Source of the DNA: Methanococcoides sp.
GTDB lineage: Archaea; Halobacteriota; Methanosarcinia; Methanosarcinales; Methanosarcinaceae
Reading direction: 5' to 3'
DNA length: 64,000 bases
Assembly: GCA_021108185.1 (NCBI GenBank)
Contig: JAIORJ010000169.1
Coordinates: forward strand, 1-64,000
How positions within the stretch are numbered: position 1 is the stretch's first letter; the number at the start of each line of letters is the position of its first letter. Both the position numbers and the translations under genes were made by a program. Of this stretch, positions 31,033 through 63,404 are shown piece after piece. The notes below the pieces were generated by a model. That model saw nothing but the letters and a program-made list of their open reading frames with translations. It had not been told where the DNA came from and did no database searches.

Positions 31033-31096
31033 ATCTCTGAAAATGGTTTTCTTTTATATGGACTTTGTGAATCTGGGTTTAATATATTAACATCCC

Positions 31097-31145
31097 ATTA
31101 TTATGAGTATCATCACTTTTCCCAATCTTTCAGAAAGTTAATATA
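31097..31145 (+). promoter_or_regulatory. Operator and TATA box of RNA unit 1
   Basis: An imperfect palindrome (31097-31118, ATTATTATGAGTATCATC..) lies 41 bases, start to start, before a TATA box TTAATATA at 31138-31145 with an AAAG element in front. The same two elements with exactly the same spacing occur before RNA units 2 and 3. The palindrome is best formed in unit 2. Confidence 0.6.
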
Positions 31146-31167
31146 GTATTGTGCCACTTGTATATAT

Positions 31168-31320
31168 TGAGGACCATTGCAGTTCTCTCCTCTCTACATT
31201 ATATGTGGTGTGGTACAAAATCAAAACAAAGGTTGCGGTGGTACGGCCTTTGTTGGTGTCGATATTATCGAAACCAAAGCGGGCTTTGTGGTGAGGTCCG
31301 CTTACATCCCCTCTTTTTCT
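31168..31320 (+). ncRNA. Structured RNA-like unit 1 of a tandem set
   Basis: About 25 bases after the TATA box begins a segment likely transcribed as a short RNA. It contains a long hairpin at 31248-31279 (CTTT/AAAG, GGT/ACC and TCGAT/ATCGA around a three-base loop). A second stem follows: GCGGGC at 31279-31284 with GTCCGC at 31296-31301, then CTTACATCCCCTC and five T residues at 31313-31317. Bases 31205-31320 are nearly identical to unit 2. The change in stem two (T to C in unit 2) keeps pairing (G-U to G-C) but would alter the amino acid in every possible protein frame, favouring RNA over protein. Start and end are predictions. Confidence 0.55.
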
Positions 31321-31488
31321 TATCCTTTGTTATGGACTATTTTTGTTCATCAAATTGTTCTTTCGAATTCTCTGGCGATCTACAAGATAGCTCCTGAACT
31401 GATCTTCAACAATACCTCATTGGATATCTCTAAAAATGGTTCTCTTCTCATGGCATTTGTGGGTCTGAGATCAATATATTAATTTCAC

Positions 31489-31537
31489 ATTATGATGAGT
31501 ATCATAACTTCTTCAAGTCCTTCATAAAGTTAATATA
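31489..31537 (+). promoter_or_regulatory. Operator and TATA box of RNA unit 2
   Basis: A perfect 7-base inverted repeat (TTATGAT, GAGT, ATCATAA) within 31489-31510 precedes TTAATATA at 31530-31537. Offset from unit 1 is 392 bases at both elements, showing tandem duplication. The palindrome suits a dimeric regulator; NikR is encoded just downstream on the other strand. Confidence 0.6.
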
Positions 31538-31559
31538 GTATTGTACCACTTGTATATAT

Positions 31560-31712
31560 TGAGGACTATTGCAGTTCTCTTCCTTCTACACTATGAGTGG
31601 TGTGGTACAAAATCAAAACAAAGGTTGCGGTGGTACGGCCTTTGTTGGTGTCGATATTATCGAAACCAAAGCGGGCTTTGTGGTGAGGCCCGCTTACATC
31701 CCCTCTTTTTCT
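31560..31712 (+). ncRNA. Structured RNA-like unit 2 of a tandem set
   Basis: This is the second copy, 392 bases after the first. The core hairpin at 31640-31671 is unchanged. The second stem is perfect here (GCGGGC at 31671-31676, GCCCGC at 31688-31693) and is followed by CCCCTCTTTTT, a probable U-rich end. Sequence between the end of unit 1 and the operator of unit 2 has diverged much more than the body, which suggests that the body is under selection. Confidence 0.55.
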
Positions 31713-31833
31713 CATTCTTTGTTGTGGGTAATTTTCGGTCTAATTTGTTCGAGTGGATCTCTTCGATTCTCTGATATTATCTTGGTTGGGTGTCTTTCAC
31801 GCCTTCGATTTTCACTTCGGCACTCAAAACCTC

Positions 31834-31882
31834 ATTATGATTATAATTATAACTTCTAAAAATCATTCCATAAGTTAATATA
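31834..31882 (+). promoter_or_regulatory. Operator and TATA box of RNA unit 3
   Basis: A near-perfect palindrome (TTATGATTATAATTATAA, within 31834-31855) lies 41 bases, start to start, before TTAATATA at 31875-31882. Spacing and TATA sequence equal those of units 1 and 2, although the downstream body differs. Confidence 0.55.
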
Positions 31883-31906
31883 CCATTACTGTATATTTTA
31901 TTTTAT

Positions 31907-32030
31907 TGTGCGCTTAAAGCTACTGAATTGAGCCGGTGGTGATGTCGTACAAGAAATACGATTTGGTTTGTGTCATTACTATGCACCGGACCAGGGGGTA
32001 CACTGTGCCCCCATCATCCCCTCTACTTTT
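31907..32030 (+). ncRNA. Structured RNA-like unit 3, different body
   Basis: After the third promoter comes a body unlike units 1 and 2 but with similar architecture. An outer stem CCGGTG (31933-31938) pairs with CACCGG (31984-31989) and encloses an inner TCGT/ACGA stem (31945-31961). A strong 3' hairpin follows (GGGGG at 31994-31998, CCCCC at 32008-32012), then ATCATCCCCTCTACTTTT, which resembles the end of the other units. No good protein frame with a ribosome binding site is present. Boundaries are predictions. Confidence 0.45.
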
Positions 32031-32111
32031 CTCAATGTCCTTAACTTTCAATAACGTTCAGAAATATCGTTCTGATCGAAAATATATCAAAAAAGAAATG
32101 TGGCAGTATGA

Positions 32112-32534
32112 TCAGATCTTTTCTGCCGGTGGTGCGGTGTTCAATTTCACGTACTTAACACCTTTAAGTGCCATTAACCTCTCGTCCATTTCCTTGATGA
32201 GTTCTCCTTCTCCGTCAAAGATAACGACTTCAAGGCAGTTATCATGGTCAAGGTGGATATGTACTGAGGACTTGATCAGGTCCGAGTAATCATGTTGTAT
32301 GTCGGCAATAGCATTTGAAAGCCCTCTCTTTGTATGGTCGTAGATAACGGTAATAGTTCCTACGCGCCTTCCCCTTATGTCGCTCATCCATTCATACTGA
32401 TTGATGTAGGTGCGTATCGAATCCCGGATGCCTTCTGAACGTGAAGAATACCCTCTGCTCTCTATGATCGAATCGAATTTATTCAACAGATTGTCTGGAA
32501 GTGAGACACCTATTCTCATTAGTTCATGTTCCAT
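32112..32534 (-). CDS. nikR: Nickel-responsive regulator NikR
   Basis: The 140-residue protein is a ribbon-helix-helix repressor with a nickel-binding ACT-like domain. The N-terminal strand and helices ([36 protein letters not shown]) bind DNA; the C-terminal site is [18 protein letters not shown] with the histidines and cysteine that hold nickel, together with HDYSDLI upstream. The start is the ATG at 32534, preceded by AGGTGA; upstream in-frame codons lack a site. The stop is TGA. Methanogens need nickel for F430 and hydrogenases or CODH, so NikR usually controls uptake. Its gene lies about 80 bases from the third RNA unit on the opposite strand, and the palindromes there are possible targets (inference). 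Confidence 0.93.
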
Positions 32535-32709
32535 AATTTCACCTGCATCAAAATAGGCATAAAAGGTAATAACATTTTGTACCACTTTTATTATTTTAGT
32601 TGTTATTTCATATCGAAAAACGCACTAGAATATATATTTATATTTAAGTGTGCTATATGGTATCCATAATTAACAAAATGTAAACTATCCATATTTGGAG
32701 ACCAAATTC

Positions 32710-63332: not shown

Positions 63333-63404
63333 TGGCGGAAACTCCGGGAATCTAACCCGGCTGAACGGATTTAGAGTCCGTTCGATCTACATGATCAAGT
63401 CTCC
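63333..63404 (-). tRNA. pylT: tRNA-Pyl (anticodon CUA)
   Basis: The 72-base sequence folds as the pyrrolysine tRNA. Acceptor GGAGACT pairs with AGTTTCC (one G-U), with G73 and CCA encoded at 63333-63335. The D arm is short, the anticodon arm has CTCTAAA with CUA (rc of 63372-63374) in an elongated stem GAACGGA/TCCGTTC, the variable loop is small, and the T arm is CCGGGTTAGATTCCCGG without the TPsiC sequence. These are tRNA-Pyl hallmarks. It heads the pyl operon. Confidence 0.98.

Follow-up and report, generated by a model that had tools for sequence, protein, structure and literature searches.

Within the window, by which we mean the whole stretch of 64,000 nucleotides analyzed, two copies of a repeated unit lie in tandem on the forward strand. 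They extend over 31058-31348 and 31450-31740 and align without gaps across 291 nt (88% identity), at exactly the 392-base offset reported in the initial annotation. The core of unit 1 (31216-31322) is 98.1% identical to that of unit 2, with 2 differences in 107 nt, while identity is 96.7% between the TATA box and the start (31138-31167), 85.4% in the 5' part of the unit (31168-31215), and 32-48% in the outside flanks, as expected from the earlier description of a nearly unchanged body and diverged flanks. We assigned the two copies as sRNA unit 1 (31168-31322, +; covariance model, 113.7 bits) and sRNA unit 2 (31560-31714, +; 114 bits), both members of a family designated A; the start of unit 1 was derived from the TATA spacing and its end from the U-run. 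The two units are indeed present, but the array is larger than the tandem pair first described: a divergent third unit (family B; 31904-32034, +; 131.7 bits) follows. Unit 3 adjoins the convergent nikR gene (32112-32540, -), which encodes a nickel-responsive ribbon-helix-helix regulator (Pfam NikR_C, 8e-33; RHH_1, 4e-8). Elsewhere in the window, we detected a tRNA-Pyl with a CUA anticodon (63333-63404, -), as would suit a methanogen that uses methylamines.

An archaeal TATA box (TTAATATA) precedes the start of each unit by approximately 25-30 nt, at 31138-31145 for unit 1, 31530-31537 for unit 2, and 31875-31882 for unit 3 (all +). Further upstream, at a constant position, each promoter carries a palindrome-like element, CATWATNATGAGTATNATNAC, hereafter the operator, located at 31096-31118 (CATTATTATGAGTATCATCACTT), 31488-31510 (CATTATGATGAGTATCATAACTT), and, in a degenerate form, 31833-31855 (CATTATGATTATAATTATAACTT), again on the forward strand; unit 3 follows the same promoter plan as units 1 and 2. 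A genus-wide pattern search found the operator upstream of dispersed sRNA units, with controls giving 0-2 matches per genome and strand, and the operator-bearing promoters of 28 units could be aligned without gaps. The units thus possess their own promoter (TATA box and upstream element) and a terminator (U-run) and contain no conserved ORF, the features by which archaeal trans-acting intergenic sRNAs are recognized. Rfam holds no family for the window, and nothing meaningful was detected at the unit loci under either gathering or permissive thresholds, consistent with the earlier remark that the RNA class is not a recognized one. The initial annotation had correctly read the units as small RNAs but had missed the three promoters with their common upstream palindrome, the relatives scattered over other loci, and the RNA with the complementary loop. 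In six Methanococcoides genomes (L124-L127, L143, L157), we also observed the same operator at a gene for a secreted protein (signal peptide; cohesin-like start ASDVTLxPSSQ..PGE.FTV); the leader of this gene contains a conserved GGGGAUUUU, a possible pairing site for the sRNA tail AUCCCC.

Folding of the 150-nt units yielded z = -3.2 for unit 1 and -4.0 for unit 2, with no shuffle as stable. This result supports the proposal of a folded RNA, but the CTTT...AAAG hairpin put forward for it competes with a better-conserved, loop-presenting hairpin, AACAAAGGUUG/CGGCCUUUGUU (31225-31254, + in unit 1). Its GGUGGUACG motif, which is the complement of the loop CGUACCACC of a second RNA, X (see below), lies at 31237-31245 (+) in unit 1 and 31629-31637 (+) in unit 2. 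These are the only two occurrences of GGUGGUACG on both strands of the window, and GGTGGTACG is likewise restricted, within the window, to the loops of units 1 and 2. In the terminator-like stem (31277-31303, + in unit 1), T at 31297 corresponds to C at 31689 in unit 2, which converts a G-U pair into a G-C pair and, as previously stated, alters the encoded residue, here in two frames that overlap (S/P and V/A). The substitution is real, but it is one-sided and so not compensatory on its own, and the single G-U/G-C difference is therefore weak evidence when taken alone. Among 12 homologues of family A, the same stem showed both-sided changes in 10 cells, a value reached by 0 of 500 shuffles, and 96.7% of the cells were paired, versus 91.7% in the shuffles; the loop G.GGUGGU.CG is invariant while the stem varies. 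A covariance search, named beforehand as a check that could overturn the small-RNA reading, recovered further copies. With homologues in 9 of the 11 genus genomes and both-sided changes above every shuffle, the proposed structured small-RNA family under selection is supported. Open frames of 77-101 aa run through the units, but the chance that they encode a small protein is next to negligible: no Pfam match was obtained for the two frames searched, and in homologues the frames are interrupted by stop codons and by indels whose length is not a multiple of three, so that the stem is kept and the frame is not. The units are almost certainly real, conserved small-RNA genes.

Covariance searches located family B downstream of nikR in 11/11 Methanococcoides genomes and family A at the nikR locus in 9/11. 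The constant presence of nikR beside the units might suggest that they belong to NikR nickel control, as an archaeal counterpart of Helicobacter pylori NikS. We regard this as highly improbable, given that most of the relatives sharing the operator are found at a distance from nikR and that nikR itself occurs in 111 of 112 Methanosarcinaceae genomes, whereas nikR-linked units are confined to Methanococcoides; nikR thus appears to be a neighbor, not an obligate partner. No operator common to nikR and the units was found, the operator-like sites of the window lying only at the three units. A candidate NikR operator drawn from TTGTACCAC/GTGGTACAA, which occur near the units and in the nikR leader, was dropped, as G007, the only other close-clade genome whose leader was read, has GTGATAC.

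Promoter and operator searches uncovered further Methanococcoides units, which were grouped as families C, D, and E. Family C is flanked by a thermosome gene and a bioY-like gene; the loci of families D and E are dispersed elsewhere. These G-type families are built on a common plan, consisting of a promoter, the operator, a first hairpin bearing GGUACG, an A-rich linker, and G-rich repeats, and most units share a AUCCCCUCU tail. Loops containing GUGGUGGU or GGUGGUACG were found in four of the five families (A, C, D, and E). Covariation in the outer stem of families D and E was consistent but did not exceed that of shuffles. Copies of family D have more than 100 nt of common flank at unrelated loci, with at most three copies per contig, as might be expected of a mobile, MITE-like repeat that carries a promoter and a hairpin and has spread without regulatory function. 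Such an origin is quite improbable for the units as a whole, because the position at the nikR locus is kept by family A in nine genomes and by family B in eleven, stems covary and loops are conserved, and neither terminal repeats nor target duplications were recognized by eye. Separately, a small-RNA-like unit Y (GGAAAAACGAAUGUACYACCACCACCAC, with a GAUCCCCCUC tail; L194 and L196-L198, at G000 C23:13663 and relatives) combines skeleton pieces of the G-type RNAs with the opposite, X-like motif; the operator was not seen there.

The operator search also led to X, a small RNA that the operator precedes in Methanococcoides. X consists of an outer stem (GCAAGRCCG/CGGUCUUGC), an inner AU-rich stem, and a fully open 24-nt loop, UAUCGUACCACCACCACCACAAAC. 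All 11 Methanococcoides genomes contain X, in 1-4 copies with one loop; one of the two copies in G007 is without one ACC. A covariance model detected X in 59 of 112 Methanosarcinaceae genomes, representing 8 of 14 genera, and the loop UCAUAUCGUACCACC is near-invariant across six genera. Since X is too conserved within Methanococcoides for a covariation test, the test was performed across genera, and the outer stem covaries over six of them (10 both-sided cells, 0/500 shuffles). In Methanosarcina, loops of the X or G type are essentially absent (the 12-nt motif occurs in 3 of 31 genomes, and the model gave one weak match). X adjoins the same aldolase/ADH-synthase-like gene in the three genera checked (Methanococcoides, Methanolobus-like, and Methanohalophilus-like), and the neighbor on its other side, in one Methanococcoides genome, is a glycyl-tRNA-synthetase-like gene; both gene names were read from the translations.

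Several additional X-like elements were observed. Genome G000, which also contains unit Y, may carry a second X-like RNA (L252, C18:7215), a hairpin, GCGCAGGUA...UACCUGCGC, that presents ACGUACCACCACAC. X-like RNAs are expanded in the Methanohalophilus-like genome G033 (L243, L253, L259, L264), with nine GTGGTGGTACG matches over the two strands together, and their outer stems differ while the loop is the same. The four-copy X array of one genome encloses a transposase-like gene (L201, 2690-3631). In Methanolobus-like genomes (L053, L247), a hairpin directly downstream of a TFB gene has the loop GUACCACCA (UCGUACCACCA in L247), and a U-run follows the hairpin, so that the X motif there seems to form part of an mRNA terminator.

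Families A, C, D, and E contain runs of 10-15 nt complementary to the X loop, and such runs are rare in background windows. Whole-molecule duplex energies span both RNAs and are uninformative; therefore, we used loop-limited duplex energies, compared with 300 shuffled RNAs and with permuted loops. For families A, C, D, and E, 0-2 of the 300 shuffles paired with X as well as the actual RNA did (0/300 for the unit 1 motif), except for one E unit (7/300), and most also outperformed the permuted loops. Complementarity to another sRNA beyond chance, by which an sRNA sponge is recognized, was thus found for these four families and not for family B. The pairing of family B with the X loop was not significant (3-90 of 300 shuffles), and unit 3 is accordingly left outside the pairing claim. 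The ACC/GGU repeats are low-complexity sequence, unlike the GUACG(AUAU) part. In units 1 and 2, the predicted cost of opening the RNA nearly cancels the duplex energy, leaving a net -5 to -6 kcal/mol. Because of this high cost, a kissing contact seems likelier than full invasion, and either such a contact or assistance by a protein would be required.

In Methanolobus-like genomes, matches to the 12-mer TATCGTACCACC proved, on the opposite strand, to be G-type small RNAs, whose hairpins, such as CCAUAU-ACGGUGGUACG-AUAUGG, sometimes occur twice per RNA. In 12/12 G-type units (11 from Methanolobus-like genomes and one from genus g2), an operator-like element precedes the TATA box by exactly 36 nt, the consensus being drawn from these same units. 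The three G-type RNAs tested have a perfect complement of 14-15 nt to the X of their own genome. X in the Methanolobus-like genomes is without the operator; genome G043 has G-type and X units with the upstream element, X lying at 1428420-1428514 (-) and the G-type unit at about 2696150 (+). The retention of the complementary pair in two genera is the strongest argument for a real contact.

A conserved motif upstream of the promoter is therefore present in both Methanococcoides and Methanolobus-like units. For Methanolobus psychrophilus R15, Li et al. (2015, PMC5378194) reported nine conserved sRNAs that are induced by cold and whose promoters are preceded by a 'cold box'. Like those RNAs, as they are presented there, the RNAs studied here are multi-copy and conserved, occur in methylotrophic Methanosarcinaceae, and share a motif upstream of their promoters; the complementary partner RNA and the wider distribution described here are not named in the text of that report. 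The G-type and X RNAs are possibly of the same kind as the nine cold box sRNAs, a likeness of description and not of sequence. Cold is the best lead for the inducing signal, and cold control of the G-type and X RNAs is a plausible but tentative proposal.

The same data can be read differently, with the units as independent cold- or stress-induced sRNAs that act on mRNAs, and with the complement to X reflecting a target motif, in mRNA or protein, that both have in common. In Methanococcoides, each of the two classes is multi-copy and under the operator, the G-type units keep other unpaired conserved pieces (the GAAAAACG linker and the AUCCCCUCU tail), and the operator is shared with the secreted-protein gene, all of which would fit action on mRNAs. 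However, the two classes are perfectly complementary in two genera, the GUACGAUAU part is not repetitive, and the GTGGTGGTACG matches examined in a search of ten genomes that were not sRNA-like lie in open, unrelated sequence. We consider direct action on mRNAs unlikely, albeit deserving of real weight.

We favor the interpretation that units 1 and 2, together with the divergent unit 3, are trans-acting sRNA genes of a dispersed Methanococcoides family with a common operator, in which the loops of four of the five types pair with X in a sponge or antagonist circuit, and assign it a probability of roughly 0.6; transcription and pairing are the parts we infer. What our computations show directly are the genes with their promoters and operator, the structures, the conserved loops, and the complementarity. 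In the proposed mechanism, activity of the operator would lead to production of the G-type RNAs, of which A, C, D, and E would expose G-rich GGUGGUACG and GUGGUGGU, the complements of the open X loop UCAUAUCGUACCACC(ACC)n. A G-type RNA would then meet X loop to loop to form a duplex of approximately 9-15 pairs, and X might thereby be sequestered or cleared. The direction of control, with X as the regulator and the G-type RNAs as its sponges or the reverse, we infer only. More broadly, these RNAs could constitute an archaeal sRNA/anti-sRNA network across several methanogen genera, in which stress-induced multi-copy sRNAs under one operator neutralize, through kissing loops, a family-wide sRNA whose loop is invariant; we put this forward as a conjecture with slightly less than even odds.

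Understanding of archaeal small RNAs is, to our knowledge, still poor, and partners are known for only a few of them. In the present case, the two partners, their site of contact, and the common promoter element are all predicted from sequence alone, and the genera concerned have cultured, cold-adapted members, so that pairing and cold control are directly testable. If true, the circuit would give meaning to the unexplained conserved cold-induced sRNAs of M. psychrophilus.

Among known systems, sRNA154, sRNA162, and sRNA41 of Methanosarcina mazei are stress-linked small RNAs from the same archaeal family as the G-type and X RNAs. The latter are set apart by their distribution, since their loops are essentially absent from Methanosarcina, and not by sequence comparison. 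In protein sponges of the CsrB/RsmZ type, several sRNAs repeat an exposed G-rich motif, as several G-type sRNAs do; we know of no protein partner of the G-type RNAs, and their motif, in contrast, complements the loop of another RNA. Among the papers listed by a literature search, none concerned archaeal sponge RNAs. In bacteria, sRNA sponges, or anti-sRNAs, are co-regulated RNAs in which an exposed segment complements the seed of another sRNA. The G-type RNAs resemble them in being co-regulated and in exposing a segment complementary to another small RNA, and differ in that the G-type/X system is archaeal and multi-copy, both partners can have one operator, and the predicted contact has kissing-loop geometry.
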